Positions 18,172 through 43,980 of a DNA stretch of 64,000 nt are shown one piece after another. A program made the position numbers and the translations under genes. The DNA lies in contig VBKF01000097.1 of NCBI GenBank assembly GCA_005888095.1, forward strand, positions 1 to 64,000. The letters run 5' to 3'. Every line of letters starts with the position of its first letter. Position 1 is the first letter of the stretch. This stretch comes from Deltaproteobacteria bacterium (GTDB lineage Bacteria; Desulfobacterota; Binatia; DP-6). The notes under the pieces were generated by a model. That model had not been told where the DNA came from and did no database searches. It saw nothing but the letters and a program-made list of their open reading frames with translations.

Positions 18172-18627
18172 ATGCGATCAACTCTTTTGCTCTCCGCTGC
18201 TCTCCTGCTCACCCTGCCGGGCGGAGCCTTCGCGCAGGCCGAGCGGCCCGACTGCGAGGCCGAGCGCTGCGCGGCCCAGGCAGCCATCAGCCAGGACTGT
18301 CCGGCCTGCAGCGAGGCGTCGAACCACGGCCGCTACGTGAGCTGCGTCGCGCACGTCGTCAAGCGCACCGTCTCGCCGGGCTGCCGCGGCAAGGCGATCC
18401 GCTGCGCCGCCCGCTCGACGTGCGGCAAGCCCGGGTTCGTCACCTGCGAGAGGCCGACCGACACGTGCGATCTCTCGACGGGCACCTGCGCGGGGAACCC
18501 GACCCAGACCTGCGCGACCGACTTCGACTGCGGCACGCGGTGCAGCATCAAGAGCTCCGCGGACCGGTGCACGGCCGCCGGCGGTCAGGTCGGCGCGAGC
18601 AGCAGCTGCTGTCCGGGCTGCGGCTGA
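18172..18627 (+). CDS. Secreted Cys-rich protein of unknown function
   Basis: 151 residues with a signal peptide (LLLSAALLLTLPGGAFAQ). The mature part carries about 20 cysteines in CxxC, CxxxC and CSTG-type spacings, for example CPACSEASNHGRYVSCVAHV and CATDFDCGTRCS, ending CCPGCG. There is no CxxCH haem motif and no recognised domain. Spacing suggests multiple disulphides in the envelope or outside the cell. The segment with THC-type spacing (GTCAGNPTQTCATDFDCG) resembles short Cys-loops found in other secreted proteins of this genome, such as CRTDLDCPGGGTC in the PhoD-like protein. It precedes hemQ by 50 bases. Confidence 0.7.
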   Translation: MRSTLLLSAALLLTLPGGAFAQAERPDCEAERCAAQAAISQDCPACSEASNHGRYVSCVAHVVKRTVSPGCRGKAIRCAARSTCGKPGFVTCERPTDTCDLSTGTCAGNPTQTCATDFDCGTRCSIKSSADRCTAAGGQVGASSSCCPGCG

Positions 18628-37919: not shown

Positions 37920-39116
37920 GTGCAGACGCCCCGGGTGGTCACGACATCGCACGCGCTCGACGCGCTCGCCGCCGAGGTCCGTGCGGCCGGGCGCCTCGCG
38001 CTCGACACCGAGTTCGTGTGGGAGCGGACGTACCGGCCGAAGCTCGGCGTCGTGCAGGTCGCCACCGAGGCGGGCGCCGCCGTGATCGATGCCGTCGAGC
38101 TGCGCGACCTCTCGCCGTTCTTCCCCGTCCTCCGCGACCCGCGCGTTCCCGTAGTGCTGCACGGTGGCACGCAGGACCTCGAGATCTTCGCCTCGCTCAT
38201 GGGCGAGACGGTGCGGGGCGTCGTCGACACGCAGATCGAGGGCGCGTTCCTCGGCTACGGGCTCCAGGTGGGGCTCTCGACGCTCCTCGAGCGGGTGCTC
38301 AAGGTCCACATCAAGAAGGACCAGACCTACACCCACTGGGACCGCCGGCCGCTGCGGCGCGAGCAGCTCGCCTACGCGGCGGAGGACGTCCTCCACCTCC
38401 TCCCGCTGCATGATCGGCTGCGCGCCGAGCTCGAGGCGCGCGGCCGCGTCGAGTGGGCGGAGGAGGAGATGCGGGCGCTCGAGGACCCCGAGCGCTACAC
38501 CCCGGTGCCGCCCGAGGAGCGCTACCAGTGGGTCAAGGGATGGCAGCGGCTCGGCGGGCGCGAGCTGGCGGTCCTGCGCGAGCTCGCCGCCTGGCGCGAG
38601 CGGGCCGCCGAGCGGGCCGACATCCGCCCCAACTTCGTCGCCAACGACATCGTTCTCACCTCGCTCGCGGCCCGCCCCGTGGAGACCATGGAGGAGCTGC
38701 GACACGTCCGCGGCCTCGCCTCGGGCGCGGTCGACCGGCACGGCCGCGCCGTCCTGGCCGCGATCCGGGCCGGCGTCGCGTGCCCGTCCGAGCGCTGGCC
38801 CGAGCGGCCGCCGCGCGTGCGCGGCAAGACACCCCCGCCCGGGCTCGCCGCTCTGCTGCGCGCCGCCGTGCAGGCGGTGGCGGAGCGCGAGGACATCGCG
38901 CCCGAGGTGATCGCGAGCGGCCGGGAGATCGAGGCGCTGGCGAGCCATGGCGGCCAGGGCGAGGTGCTCGACGGCCTCGGCGTCGTGCGTGGCTGGCGCC
39001 GGGGGCTCGTCGGCGAGACGCTCCTCGCCATCGCGCGCGGCGAGCTGGCGATCGCCTACGATCCCGAGCGGCGTGAGGTCGTGGCGCGCGGCATCAATCC
39101 GTCGACGTCACCTTGA
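37920..39116 (+). CDS. rnd: Ribonuclease D
   Basis: 398 residues with a GTG start. The DEDD exonuclease domain shows LALDTEFVWERTYRPKLGVV (Exo I), HGGTQDLEIFASLMG (Exo II) and LAYAAEDVLHLLPLHDRL (Exo III, Y-x3-D). Two HRDC-type helical domains follow (AWRERAAERADIRPNFVAND and a second after residue 310). RNase D trims the 3' ends of tRNA and other small RNAs. Its stop overlaps by 23 bases the end of the convergent split-barrel gene. Confidence 0.93.
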   Translation: MQTPRVVTTSHALDALAAEVRAAGRLALDTEFVWERTYRPKLGVVQVATEAGAAVIDAVELRDLSPFFPVLRDPRVPVVLHGGTQDLEIFASLMGETVRGVVDTQIEGAFLGYGLQVGLSTLLERVLKVHIKKDQTYTHWDRRPLRREQLAYAAEDVLHLLPLHDRLRAELEARGRVEWAEEEMRALEDPERYTPVPPEERYQWVKGWQRLGGRELAVLRELAAWRERAAERADIRPNFVANDIVLTSLAARPVETMEELRHVRGLASGAVDRHGRAVLAAIRAGVACPSERWPERPPRVRGKTPPPGLAALLRAAVQAVAEREDIAPEVIASGREIEALASHGGQGEVLDGLGVVRGWRRGLVGETLLAIARGELAIAYDPERREVVARGINPSTSP

Positions 39117-39543
39117 CGATCACCGTCTTCCCGGCCCGCACGCGCTCGGGGTTCGGGCGGAAGAGGCCCAGCCAGGCGATCCAGTACTTCCGGCTGTACA
39201 CCGGTGCCATGCGCGCCGCGACTTCGGGGTCGCGCACCAGCTCGGCCTGCCCGACGAAGTGCGGTCCGCTCGTGCTGCCCACCCAGACGAGGAGCGGGCT
39301 GCCGCGCGCGACGCGCCGCGCCTTGTGGCTGTCCGGTCCGGTGGTGAAGTAGATGGCGTCGCCGTCGAACATGAACCAGACGGGGACCACCTTGCTCTCG
39401 GTGCCGTCGGCGCGTCGCGTGGCGACGTAGATCTGCTTCGAGGTCGCGAGCGCCGCGGCGGCGTCGGGCTGAAAGCTCGCGGCCACCGCAGCTGCAGCGA
39501 GCAACGCGAAGACGACGGAGAGGACCCCGGTCATGGCGGGCAC
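39094..39543 (-). CDS. Exported pyridoxamine-phosphate-oxidase-like protein
   Basis: 149 residues. Signal peptide (GVLSVVFALLAAAAVAA), then a split-barrel domain: YVATRRADGTESKVVPVWFM, FDGDAIYFTTGPDSHKARRV and PLLVWVGSTSGPHFVGQAEL, with the terminal helix APVYSRKYWIAWLG. Cytoplasmic relatives bind FMN or F420; how an exported one is loaded is unclear. The start overlaps the stop of the upstream modular secreted protein by 13 bases, so the two are translationally coupled. Compare the exported DUF2255-like protein at 35456-35854. Confidence 0.7.
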   Translation of the reverse strand: MPAMTGVLSVVFALLAAAAVAASFQPDAAAALATSKQIYVATRRADGTESKVVPVWFMFDGDAIYFTTGPDSHKARRVARGSPLLVWVGSTSGPHFVGQAELVRDPEVAARMAPVYSRKYWIAWLGLFRPNPERVRAGKTVIVKVTSTD

Positions 39544-40808
39544 GCGGGCGGTGCCGGTGACTTGGCCGTGAAGAAGCTCTTACCCGGCTTGAACGTCTGG
39601 ACGCCGTCGAAGGTCATGCAGTACCGCTTTATCCCCGTGGTGAGGACGACGTCCACCGGCCGCGGGCTGCCCGCGAGCGAGTGCGTGAGCTCAGCGCCGG
39701 CTCCCATCGCCTTCAGCTGATGAGGCTTGGCGTTCTTCAGGACCACGACCCTGATCGGCCCGTTCGCCTGCGTGGGGTCGCGGTACCGATACCCCTTGTC
39801 CGGACGCTTCCCGACCCGCCTCCACGCAGACGCCGGAAGGCTGTACGTGCTGTCGCACGGGGTCAACCCGCTCGGGCCGCAGCCGCCGCCCGTGCGCACG
39901 CGGAGGCTGCCCCCGCCGAGCGTGGGGTCGTCGGGGCTCCCGTTGCCGGGGCCGAGCTCGATCGCCGCGTCGATGGAGAGGACCATCAGCTTCCGCCTGG
40001 CGGGGTTCGACGGGTTGTCCTTGAGCACGAGCTTCTTCCCCGACAGCGGGCGATCGGTCCCGGCCGGGACCGTGGTGGTCGTGGTGGTCGCGCGCGGCCG
40101 GGTCGTCGTCGTCGCCCGGAGCGTGGTCGTTGTGGTCGGTTCGGTGCACGCCCCGAAGCTGCCGGTCACCTCGGCCCCCTCGAGCGGCCCGTTGTTGGTG
40201 GGCGTGGGGCAGGCGAGGGCGAAGTCGTTGCTCGCGTTCGTCTGTCGCACGAGGCTGTGGACGCCCTCTCCGGGCGTGGCGGTCGCCGGCGAGTCCGCGT
40301 CCGTCTTCTGTGGACCCGCATACGGGCCGTAGGCGACGCAGTCGACGTACTCGTTGGGATCCGTGGCGTCCCACGTGGTCGGGTCCTTGGAGAAGCTGGT
40401 CACCGGGTCCACCGGCCCGCCCCAGCACACCATGCCGCACGCGGCCGGGATGCCGGGCGGGAAGGTGAAGTCGGGCGTCACCGACGGCGTCGTCTTCGTG
40501 GCGAGGCTCGACGTCCCCATGATCCAGTGCCGGCCCGCGCCCTGGTTCGGCACGTCCCCGCCCGAGATGGTCGGCGGCGGGATCGTGAGCAGGACGGTCG
40601 CGGTCGTGCCGGCGCAGTCGAACACCGTGAGGCGGGTGTTGCCGACCATTTTCTGGAAGTCGAAGTCCATGCGGATCTCGACGTACTGCACGCTCGGGTC
40701 GCCCGCGACGCCGGACATGACCTCGCTGATGTGCGCGAGGTGGTAGCTCGCTTCGGAGCGGGCCGGGCCGAGCAGGAGGAGCGCGATGGCGGCGGCAGGG
40801 CGCGACAT
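39531..40808 (-). CDS. Modular secreted protein A (shared N-module, Thr linker, beta-rich C-module)
   Basis: 425 residues. Signal peptide, then an N-module of ~200 residues shared with the next upstream gene. Shared blocks are HLAHISEVMSGVAGDPSVQY followed by VEIRM, IPAACGMVCWGGPVDP, TTWDATDPNEYVDCVAYGPY and FALACPTPTNNG. A Thr-rich linker (TEPTTTTTLRATTTTRPRAT and onward) leads to a beta-rich module from ~265 (KLVLKDNPSNPARRKLMVLS, YSLPASAWRRVGKR, RYCMTFDGVQTF). The N-module resembles lamin-tail-like extracellular domains (V-Q-Y-V-E-I-R), but I am not certain. The Thr linker is probably glycosylated or extended. Co-transcribed with the exported split-barrel gene. Confidence 0.7.
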   Translation of the reverse strand: MSRPAAAIALLLLGPARSEASYHLAHISEVMSGVAGDPSVQYVEIRMDFDFQKMVGNTRLTVFDCAGTTATVLLTIPPPTISGGDVPNQGAGRHWIMGTSSLATKTTPSVTPDFTFPPGIPAACGMVCWGGPVDPVTSFSKDPTTWDATDPNEYVDCVAYGPYAGPQKTDADSPATATPGEGVHSLVRQTNASNDFALACPTPTNNGPLEGAEVTGSFGACTEPTTTTTLRATTTTRPRATTTTTTVPAGTDRPLSGKKLVLKDNPSNPARRKLMVLSIDAAIELGPGNGSPDDPTLGGGSLRVRTGGGCGPSGLTPCDSTYSLPASAWRRVGKRPDKGYRYRDPTQANGPIRVVVLKNAKPHQLKAMGAGAELTHSLAGSPRPVDVVLTTGIKRYCMTFDGVQTFKPGKSFFTAKSPAPPACPP

Positions 40809-40820
40809 GAGCTGTCGGAG

Positions 40821-40856
40821 AAAAAAAGAGGGGCGGGATAGCTTCCCGCCCCCCTC
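40821..40856 (-). terminator. Rho-independent terminator
   Basis: On the minus strand a GC-rich hairpin (TCCCGCCCC-type arms around AGCTA) is followed by seven T residues (the A run at 40821-40827). It lies just downstream of modular protein B at 40881. This is the clearest intrinsic terminator in the window and separates genes B and A. Confidence 0.85.
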
Positions 40857-40880
40857 GGGCTGCTTACGGACCCAGTCTGT

Positions 40881-42320
40881 CTACGGGCATGGATAAGCGA
40901 CCTCGTTGGCCGCCTCGATCTGGCTGATGACGTTCGCCGCGAGCATGTCACGGCTGGTCCGCGACAGGCACGTCTGGGTGCAGGTGCCCTTGAGATCGAG
41001 CTTGTCCATGGCCGCGCTGTACTTCTCGTGCGCGGCCTTGTGCTTGACCGGGTCCGTCTCCTCGCACGCCTCCTCGTCGAAGGGCTTGAACGCGAACCTG
41101 GCGTCGGCCGCCTTCTGGTGGCACTTGATGACCGCGGCGGCGAGCTTGCCGAGCTCCGCGCCGACCGTGTCGGCGCACTTGAGCCGGTTCTTCGCGTCCG
41201 CCGCCGCCATGTCGACCGTGCCCGCATCGTCGCCGCTCGCGTCGATCGAGGTCGTGCCGTCGCAGTAGACGTTCCCGTTCTGCGCGTCGAGCGAGGCAGG
41301 GTTCGTCTTGGAGGCGAAGAGGGTCGTCTCCTCGGCCGTGGCGCCGCTCAGCTGCTGCCCGCTGCAGAGGGGCGAGAGCTTGGCGATCGCCGCGTCGAGC
41401 TTCTCCTTCGCGGCCTTTCCGGTGCCGGTCCCCTCCTCGCAGGCTTCGTCGTCGGCGGGCGGACCGGCGAAGGCGGCGTGGGCCTGCTTCTGGTGGCACT
41501 TGATGACCGCCCGGATCGCCTTGCCGAAGGCCTTGCCGAGACCGTCGCCGCACTTCAAGTGACCCTTCGTGTCGGGCACGCAGCCGGTGTCGTCGCCGCC
41601 GAAGGCCAGGGTCGTGGAGGTCGTGGTGCTCGTCGTGCTCGTGCTGGTGGTGGTCGGCGGGGTACACGAGCCGAAGGTACCCATCATGTTCGCGTTGTTC
41701 GTCGGGCTGGGACAGTCGAGCGTGAAGTTGTTGCTGAACATGAGGTCGTCGGCCCGCCGCAAGCTGAAGGTCGGGTCACCCGGCGTGGCGCCCGCGGGCG
41801 GGTTGCCGGCCGGCTCGGGCGCCCCGTCGTAGGTCCCGTACGCGACGCAGTCGGTGTAGTTCGCCGGGTTGGTGGCGTCCCAGGTGGGAGGATTCGGCGG
41901 GACGGTGCTGCTCGGTGCCCCCCAGCAGACCATGCCGCACGCGGTCGGGATGCTGCCGATCACGGTGGCGTCCCAGGTGAAGTCGGGCGTGATTCCGGAC
42001 TGCGCGAGGAAGACGGCAGCGCTCGGGCTGGCCATGATCCAGCGTAGGTTCGGCCCGCCGTTGGGAACATTCGCCGGGAGATCGGCGATGAGGACCGCGG
42101 ATCCACCCCCGTCCCCGCTGCACTTGAAGACGGTGAGCCGCGAGTGGGCGACGAGCGTCTGATTCGCCGAGAGCATGCGGATCTCCACATACTGAATGCT
42201 CGGGTTCCCGTTGGCGCCGGACTTCACCTCATCGATCACGGCCAGGTGGAAGAGCGCCTGAGTCTCGTGGGGCGTCAGCAGGGCGAACAGGGTGGCGAGG
42301 GTGGCTACGAACCGCGACAT
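40881..42320 (-). CDS. Modular secreted protein B (shared N-module, Thr/Ser linker, paired-Cys helical C-module)
   Basis: 479 residues. After the signal peptide (LATLFALLTPHETQA), residues ~22-215 repeat the N-module of protein A: LAVIDEVKSGANGNPSIQYV then EIRM, IPTACGMVCWGAP, PTWDATNPANYTDCVAYG and FTLDCPSPTNN. The linker is Thr/Ser-rich (TTTSTSTTSTTTSTT). The C-module differs: two helical repeats of ~110 residues, each with KC-x5-G-[KA]...KCHQK (HLKCGDGLGKAF...VIKCHQKQAHAAF; RLKCADTVGAELG...VIKCHQKAADARF) and a later EACEE. No CxxCH is present. GGAGGAGG upstream supports the start. Function unknown. Confidence 0.7.
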   Translation of the reverse strand: MSRFVATLATLFALLTPHETQALFHLAVIDEVKSGANGNPSIQYVEIRMLSANQTLVAHSRLTVFKCSGDGGGSAVLIADLPANVPNGGPNLRWIMASPSAAVFLAQSGITPDFTWDATVIGSIPTACGMVCWGAPSSTVPPNPPTWDATNPANYTDCVAYGTYDGAPEPAGNPPAGATPGDPTFSLRRADDLMFSNNFTLDCPSPTNNANMMGTFGSCTPPTTTSTSTTSTTTSTTLAFGGDDTGCVPDTKGHLKCGDGLGKAFGKAIRAVIKCHQKQAHAAFAGPPADDEACEEGTGTGKAAKEKLDAAIAKLSPLCSGQQLSGATAEETTLFASKTNPASLDAQNGNVYCDGTTSIDASGDDAGTVDMAAADAKNRLKCADTVGAELGKLAAAVIKCHQKAADARFAFKPFDEEACEETDPVKHKAAHEKYSAAMDKLDLKGTCTQTCLSRTSRDMLAANVISQIEAANEVAYPCP

Positions 42321-43980
42321 GTCTGACCTCCTCCGAGGAAACCAACCCTATTCTCGGCGCTTCGCCGCCGTCAACCACCTTTCTCGCGATTCGGTCCTCG
42401 AGGCTCCACACGGCAACCCGCCCATCGCCGTCGCCGGAGAGGAGGGTTTCTCCGGCCCAGGCCAGACCCCATACCGGCGCCCGGTGCCAGGCGAGCTCCT
42501 CGACGAGCGCGCCGCTCGCGAGGTCGATGAGGCGGATCTTCCGGTCGAGGCCGCCAACCGCCGCAAGCTCTCCCCGAGGCGCCATCGCGGCACGGTGGAG
42601 GCTGGTGGGGAACTGGTGGCGAGCGAGCACGGTGCCGCTCGCTGCGTCCCACACGCGAATGATGCCATCGGCGCTCGCCGAGAGGAGTCGGTCGCCCGCG
42701 AACGCGAGCGCCTCCACAGCCCGCTCGGAGTCGGTGAAGAGACGCGGTGCGACCTCACTGTCGAGGTCGAAGATCGCGATGGGTCCCGCATCGCTCGCGA
42801 CGGCCGCCCGCCTGCCGTCGGGGGAAAAGGCAACGGCCGCGCCCTCGCGCTCCACCACGAGACGCCGGACCTCGCGTCCGTCGCCGGCCGCGAGGAGGTG
42901 CCCGCTGGGGTCGTAGAATACCGTGACGAGGAGCCGCGCGGCAGCAGGCGACCAGGCAAGGGCGCGCACGACGCCGGGATAGGCGGGCAGCTCGCGCAGG
43001 AGGCGACCGCCCGCCGTCGCGTAGACGAGGACACGGTTCTCCACCGCCACCGCCGCCTCGGCCCCATCGGGACTCACCGCGATGGCGTTGGCCGCCTCGG
43101 GGTGTGGCACCTCCGTCACGGGCACGGCGATCGGCGGAGGCGGTGCGAAACCCTCCAGGAACTGCACGCCCGGCATGCGCCACGCGCTCACGCCCGTGCC
43201 GAGGACGCCGACGAACGCCGTCGAGCCGTCGGGCGACGCAGCGATGAACGTCACCGTGCGGGGGAAGGCGAGCACGCAGCGGGGCAGGCGCTGCCCGTCG
43301 TCCGGGCGCCGATCGGGCGGGACGCAGCCCTCGGGTGGAATTCCCGCTGCGCCCGTCATGCCCGTGCCGAGGGGCACGACGAAATGGGATTCGAGGAGCT
43401 CCCCCGCCTGCACGACGCGCACGTGCGCCGCGACCGCGTCGCCCGCGAGCGGCGGCCCGCTCCCCTCGAGGGCGCCGTCGTGCGCGGCGAGCGGGATCTC
43501 CCGGCGCCCTTCCGGCAGGTCCACCGTGACCGTGCCGGTCGCCCCGGCGAGCGGGAGCGGCCGCCGCCAGACGTCGGTCAGGTAGACGCGGACGCTCCCG
43601 TCGCGCGCCGCGACGGCTTCGAGATGGCGCATGCCCACCATCGCGACCACGCCGCCGTGGTGCGGCGTGTGGTCGTGGATGCCGGGGCGGCCCGCCGCGG
43701 CCGTACCGAGCGCGACGAGTCGGGTCACGATCAGGTCGTGGCCGGCGCGCACGAGCTCGAAGCGGACGCGCGTGCCCGGCGCGATGCCGGCGAGGACGTC
43801 CGCCGAGCGCACGGGGAACGCCATGGTCATCGCGCCCATGAGGCCCGGGATGTCGTCGTGGCTGATCGTCACCCGGAGCGCGGCCGGGTCGACGGCCGTG
43901 ACGTCGCCGGTGGCGGTGTAGGTCGAGCGCCCGCAGCCGAGGGCGAGCGTCAGGACGACGACGGGCGCGAGCCACCGCAT
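42229..43980 (-). CDS. Putative lipoprotein with CusF-like, YtkA-like and WD40 domains
   Basis: 583 residues. LTLALGC is a probable lipobox with Cys16. Residues ~22-92 resemble CusF copper-binding domains: GDVTAVDPAALRVTISHDDI, MGAMTMAFPV with the Met-Thr-Met pair, and RVRFELVRAGHDLIVTRL. A His-rich segment (IHDHTPHHGG) and an Ig-like domain (~108-205) follow. From ~240 there is a seven-bladed-type WD40 propeller (TFIAASPDGSTAFVGVLG, ALAWSPAAARLLVTVFYD, LLSASADGIIRVWDAASG). The last ~30 residues run through the ribosome binding site and first 92 bases of modular protein B, so the original stop seems lost. A periplasmic metal-linked role is inference. Confidence 0.75.
   Translation of the reverse strand: MRWLAPVVVLTLALGCGRSTYTATGDVTAVDPAALRVTISHDDIPGLMGAMTMAFPVRSADVLAGIAPGTRVRFELVRAGHDLIVTRLVALGTAAAGRPGIHDHTPHHGGVVAMVGMRHLEAVAARDGSVRVYLTDVWRRPLPLAGATGTVTVDLPEGRREIPLAAHDGALEGSGPPLAGDAVAAHVRVVQAGELLESHFVVPLGTGMTGAAGIPPEGCVPPDRRPDDGQRLPRCVLAFPRTVTFIAASPDGSTAFVGVLGTGVSAWRMPGVQFLEGFAPPPPIAVPVTEVPHPEAANAIAVSPDGAEAAVAVENRVLVYATAGGRLLRELPAYPGVVRALAWSPAAARLLVTVFYDPSGHLLAAGDGREVRRLVVEREGAAVAFSPDGRRAAVASDAGPIAIFDLDSEVAPRLFTDSERAVEALAFAGDRLLSASADGIIRVWDAASGTVLARHQFPTSLHRAAMAPRGELAAVGGLDRKIRLIDLASGALVEELAWHRAPVWGLAWAGETLLSGDGDGRVAVWSLEDRIARKVVDGGEAPRIGLVSSEEVRHVAVRSHPRHPVRPADAPRDSGALPPGRDR

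Follow-up and report, generated by a model that had tools for sequence, protein, structure and literature searches.

We analyzed a pair of adjacent genes, here called A and B, in a 64,000-nucleotide stretch (the window) of contig VBKF01000097.1 from a Deltaproteobacteria bacterium of the Desulfobacterota class Binatia (assembly GCA_005888095.1), and found that they belong to a family of modular proteins. The analysis strongly supports A and B as exported modular proteins without a recognized enzyme domain, their signal peptides being predicted by pattern. Both share an N-terminal domain of approximately 200 residues, the N-module, which is followed by a Thr-rich linker and by one of several unrelated C-terminal modules. 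The overall explanation that we propose, to which we give an even chance of being correct, is that such exported proteins are built from exchanged module combinations, in which the C-modules would provide retention and the N-module would be a non-catalytic binding cargo.

Both open reading frames were found on the minus strand exactly where the original prediction had placed them, and their layout was read from the open reading frame list and the sequence. Protein A (425 aa, 39531-40808) consists of a signal peptide (40749-40808; residues 1-20, ending in SEA), recognized as a hydrophobic stretch ahead of the N-module, the N-module itself (40146-40748), a Thr-rich linker (40062-40145) and a β-rich C-module (39534-40061), hereafter the β-module. 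Protein B (479 aa, 40881-42320) has the same order, with a signal peptide (42255-42320; residues 1-22, ending in TQA), an N-module (41664-42254), a Thr-rich linker (41595-41663) and a Cys-helical C-module (40884-41594) that contains a KCHxK motif; "helical" is a putative label taken from the sequence only. A BLASTP comparison of A and B gave a single significant alignment, in which 45% of 233 columns were identical (E 1e-51) and which stopped at the linker (residue 221/219) and left the C-terminal halves unaligned. The N-modules of the two proteins were 49% identical, and a profile-profile comparison of their C-modules gave a P value of 0.56, consistent with unrelated domains. The predicted arrangement of a common N-module, a Thr-rich linker and different C-modules was thus borne out, and the motifs quoted for the shared part were present, except that B reads PTWDAT where A reads TTWDAT. 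Neither protein matched any family in Pfam or NCBIfam. Two candidate explanations were thereby rejected, namely that the N-module is a known catalytic domain (no Pfam or NCBIfam match) and that the C-regions are degenerate copies of one another (P 0.56).

A profile search with the N-module and a list of the attached C-modules, both proposed as checks in the original prediction, revealed five copies in the own genome, each with a different C-region, and a sixth, weak match at C136. The five-copy profile matched 16 of the 58 related genomes, and a 29-row profile matched at least 23 of the 148 genomes covered within the class, a lower bound with 23 candidates scored per genome. Across the phylum, the module was present in at least six of the 395 sampled genomes (likewise a lower bound, with eight candidates scored per genome), all six belonging to the class, and two Planctomycetota metagenome-assembled genomes also bear it. 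No Pfam family was found in more than one of the 29 members (best E 0.11). Two cysteines were invariant across all 29 aligned rows and probably form a disulphide. A hydrophobic stretch (10-residue Kyte-Doolittle peak of at least 2.0) lay directly ahead of the N-module in all 28 proteins inspected for it, and an A-x-A-like end preceded the module in 27 of the 28 by pattern match.

The anatomy of the family was examined in 35 proteins (28 plus 7). Genes that recurred in overlapping loci entered the architecture count once, and L061 (at a contig end), L067 (a fragment) and L098 (weak) were excluded from it. Profiles at E 0.01 placed the β-module on five of them, the Cys-helical module on three and neither on the remaining 27. 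Some of these 27 carried dockerin-like ends (Dockerin_1 E 2.5e-3, 2.7e-4 and 5.4e-3, all under the curated cut-off). Also within this group, protein L054 had a Cys-rich myxo repeat above the cut-off and a GSDH-like domain under it (E 8e-5), and L169 had a cytochrome P460-like end, again under the cut-off, with a CxxCH motif. The C-terminus of L059 showed a hydrophobic stretch with arginines, and no sorting model matched this end. These 35 proteins, together with the exchange at one locus described below, agree with the predicted secreted family of a conserved N-module with exchangeable C-modules. We also observed a duplicated "TPDE..LVNKDVG..RWTITRN" module on the N-module proteins L049, L169 and L175, and distant, shorter N-module-like domains ahead of very Cys-rich repeats in L092, L093 and L098, parts of which read as X.

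The N-module was modeled with AlphaFold2 from 29 sequences, which gave a nearly all-β structure with a predicted local distance difference test score (pLDDT) of 91.3 and a predicted template modeling score (pTM) of 0.90. A Foldseek search with this model returned lamin tail domains at ranks 1-5 (best probability 0.99, E 0.019). In the VIA search, the best match was 4q1z, the DUF4876 protein BT_1938 (PF16215), with a Z-score of 11.6 and a root mean square deviation of 3.5 over 178 of 201 residues at 11% identity; twelve lamin rows followed at ranks 2-13 (Z-scores of 7.7-5.3), and unrelated chains started at 4.7. An HHalign comparison of the N-module with 12 lamin tail domains from the phylum brought the I-x-E and VEI motifs, which occur in the same order in both, into register across 49 columns; the P values for unrelated controls were 0.55 and 0.95. 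The position directly behind the signal sequence is also shared with the lamin tail domain of bacterial ExeM (PMC6085458).

Several results weigh against this structural placement. No Foldseek match of the N-module had an E-value below 0.001, the VIA Z-scores of the lamin tail proper were under 8, and the HHalign result was weak in itself (probability 5.8%, P 0.0065). The lamin tail model PF00932, which covers 109 positions in contrast to the ~200 residues and two invariant cysteines of the N-module, had no match at E 0.01 in the own genome and none at E 1 among the 29 members. The DUF4876 model PF16215 likewise matched none of the 29 members at E 1; the 389-residue 4q1z chain is nearly double the length of the N-module, and the model matched in none of the 395 genomes sampled across the phylum. 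When PDB sequences were searched with the N-module profile, only a chance-level telomerase match was returned (E 1.8, 0.86). Judged from the predicted model, it is nevertheless strongly supported that the N-module represents a new sequence family with a lamin-tail- or DUF4876-like fold, distinct from both PF00932 and PF16215. The original prediction had stated that no description of this family was known, which holds for the sequence in Pfam and NCBIfam but not for the fold; the suggested structure prediction yielded a confident model that is not free of relatives. Word searches of the literature found no paper on the three modules, although such searches would overlook modules that had been described by different names.

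The β-module of A is common to the class and lacks a Pfam family. Its predicted structure (pLDDT 95.0, pTM 0.91) was β-rich, as had been proposed. Profile searches gave 16 matches in the own genome at E 0.001, some of which are pieces of one module, and the module was found in 33 of the 58 related genomes, a single one of which can have as many as 33 matches. It was also present in at least six of 297 genomes of the phylum, all six in the class; this tally is a lower bound, with 12 candidates scored per genome. Compared against 35 β-module members, no Pfam family was found in more than one (best E 0.01). Among 37 full modules, 23 were C-terminal, 10 were N-terminal behind a signal peptide, three stood alone behind a signal peptide (L131, L132 and L134) and one was internal; this count derives from 41 rows, of which four partial ones were left out, and L136 was reassigned from internal to N-terminal owing to a likely non-ATG start. 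Partners of the β-module with Pfam support were GSDH (twice), Peptidase_S8 (subtilase), FG-GAP and PQQ_2, in a scan of nine proteins of which four had no family at E 1e-4. A C-terminal sorting domain, such as the type IX C-terminal domain, was considered and rejected, since 10 of the 37 modules are N-terminal and three stand alone. A carbohydrate-binding module was considered as another candidate identity, for which there is a β-rich model with no close solved relative. The β-module exceeds the N-module both in frequency (33 versus 16 of the 58 relatives) and in promiscuity.

The Cys pattern of the B C-module arises from an internal duplication, whose halves are 53% identical over 78 aa (E 2e-19). 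This Cys-helical module was found in 14 of the 58 related genomes, mostly in this genus (18, 11 and 12 matches), and had no convincing Pfam family match. It also occurs on other secreted proteins; in a scan of five, its partners were Phosphoesterase, Lcl_C and the plastocyanin-like Copper-bind, while no family was recognized in L016 and nothing but a Dicty_CTDC repeat in L015.

Evidence for module exchange was found at the B locus. The congener G001 has the same two genes in unchanged order, and the window B and G001 B proteins share 86% identity over 237 residues of the C-module but only 48% in the N-module. DNA identity between the two genomes, measured in 90-base bins, was 66-92% across the aligned portion of the preceding gene, which encodes a CusF-type copper-binding domain and a WD40 propeller (CusF-WD40). 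It dropped to 42-70% between approximately 42270 and 41730, a segment that covers only the signal peptide and the N-module, and rose to 79-91% where the N-module ends, a level that was kept across the linker and the C-module. In a tree of 29 N-modules, window B was sister to L047 of genome G005, which bears a β-module (95/92), and G001 B clustered (98/99) with G002 B and a protein that carries dockerin-like repeats. Approximately unbiased (AU) tests rejected three groupings, namely window B with G001 B (p 0.0009), all three Cys-helical bearers in a single clade (p 0.0027) and three named β-module bearers in a single clade (p 2e-5), the last of these with L050 and its weak β-module match left out. 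Mapping the C-module type onto the N-module tree required at least 17 changes (28 labeled rows, with labels assigned by eye). Since the identity drop is limited to the signal peptide and N-module, and given the tree and the AU tests, the signal peptide and N-module of window B appear to have been replaced. It could instead be argued that no exchange took place and that the N-module of the window lineage simply diverged fast under selection; window B and L047 both sit on long branches (0.53 and 0.56), which can attract each other, and this is a caveat for the sister placement. We consider this very unlikely, because the linker and C-module retain 79-91% identity, because the AU test excludes window B with G001 B and because G002 B, which likewise adjoins a CusF gene, bears the G001-type N-module.

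Taken in sequence, the strongly supported part of the mechanism begins with a signal peptide, recognized by pattern, after which the mature N-terminus is an all-β, lamin-tail- or DUF4876-like domain with two invariant cysteines. A Thr-rich linker connects it to one of several unrelated C-modules that are found also on other secreted proteins, and these combinations have been exchanged, with the signal peptide and N-module apparently replaced in B. Positioned at one end or the other of many secreted enzymes, the C-modules may act in general retention or adhesion to the cell surface, a matrix or a substrate. The N-module may be a non-catalytic ligand- or partner-binding cargo that is coupled to different retention modules. 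This polarity is the reverse of the originally predicted common scaffold carrying different heads. The predicted display system is supported only in part, since both C-modules are themselves shared; the β-module is found in about twice as many relatives as the N-module, and the C-modules look more like the common carrier. We prefer them as such because the β-module is commoner, more promiscuous and independent of position. Promiscuity is the one observation that points to a retention role. PDB fold searches with the β-module found no convincing relative (best VIA Z-score 5.8), which is no proof of a new fold; since a solved relative is lacking, adhesion, substrate binding and a folding aid would suit the module equally. 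The N-module precedes many different C-regions, so it could be a carrier too.

The opposite polarity, in which variable functional heads, the C-modules, are carried at the surface by the N-module as their common anchor or scaffold, appears rather unlikely to us. It would accommodate the constant position of the N-module at the mature N-terminus ahead of many different C-regions, and the dehydrogenase-like domain of L054, with the sub-threshold GSDH score given above. Bacterial lamin tail domains have also been suggested to direct proteins to membranes, a role described as unsettled, and the ExeM domain directly follows its signal sequence (PMC6085458); these published remarks would fit either polarity. 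Against it stand the greater frequency and promiscuity of A's C-module, which occurs alone behind a signal peptide in L131, L132 and L134, and the other attachment-like ends of N-module proteins (the dockerin-like repeats and the hydrophobic and basic end of L059), which a self-anchoring scaffold would not need.

The CusF-WD40 gene (42229-43980, minus strand, 583 aa) lies upstream of B, and its CusF domain was recognized at E 7e-21. We observed that the B start codon (42320) lies inside the 3' end of this gene by 92 bp, in another frame; this overlap may allow translational coupling. The gene adjoins an N-module gene in G000, G001 and G002, in the last of which it is also upstream of B (70%). 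In three other genera, the neighbors were convergent (L189 of G005), divergent (L192 of G025) and in the same direction with the propeller only (L198 of G009). These neighbors, together with the setting of DUF4876, which in Bacteroidetes adjoins TonB receptors within gene sets that depend on iron (PMC10434189), suggest a link to metals, and the N-module proteins could then be part of an extracellular metal-handling set that works with the CusF/propeller protein. Among 98 control loci, only two CusF-WD40 matches were found, both of which were this same locus; the control loci are shorter, come from other genes and are unmatched, so that the comparison is rough. A CusF-WD40 homologue was found beside three of 20 further N-module regions and was absent from the other 17, and when the neighborhoods of these 20 regions were clustered, all groups other than the N-module genes themselves were small, CusF-WD40 being one of them. 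We regard the metal-handling role as quite unlikely.

Between B and A lies a terminator-like hairpin (40826-40856, minus strand) with a 13-pair stem and a T run, 17 nt ahead of the ATG of A. The original prediction described it as a strong terminator that may allow A and B to be expressed differently. The stem, the T run and a folding energy of -30.8 kcal/mol (z -2.37, with 5 of 200 shuffles equally good) agree with a terminator-like element, but the promoter and terminator scan found two terminator-like sites against 1.6 expected from shuffles and is by itself no evidence. The congener G001 retains a hairpin with a weaker T run, and the scan found no sigma-70-like site across 39000-42800. Given its distance from the A start codon, the hairpin could equally be an attenuator in the leader of A. 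On the other side of A, a pyridoxamine-phosphate-oxidase-like gene (39094-39543, minus strand; PNPOx_N E 2e-13) was observed, whose listed open reading frame shares 13 bp with the 3' end of A. Elsewhere in the window, ARAGORN reported one tRNA-like gene (18303-18390, minus strand) of undefined type with a four-base anticodon.

Modular secreted enzymes with dockerins or carbohydrate-binding modules are a known kind of protein. The proteins described here resemble them in their Thr-rich linkers and in accessory modules that are common to many secreted enzymes and stand at either end, and some N-module proteins end in dockerin-like repeats; unlike these enzymes, the β- and Cys-helical modules have no convincing Pfam family. 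A tentative extension, possible but in our judgment doubtful, is that the β-module, and in this genus also the Cys-helical module, is an undescribed lineage-wide general attachment module by which one organism mounts much of its secretome on a common extracellular receptor or polymer. If true, this would represent a cellulosome-like logic with different parts, in which modules stand on either end of unrelated secreted enzymes, in many cases joined by Thr-rich linkers, and are reshuffled by recombination at module borders. Three sequence families without Pfam models, the N-module, the β-module and the Cys-helical module, organize a portion of the proteins secreted by this uncultured lineage from soil. 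The B locus provides an apparently clean within-genus module replacement, and thereby a place to study how domains are shuffled in secreted proteins of bacteria. The β-module, of which a genome can have dozens of matches, offers a good starting point for learning what the secreted enzymes of this lineage attach to.

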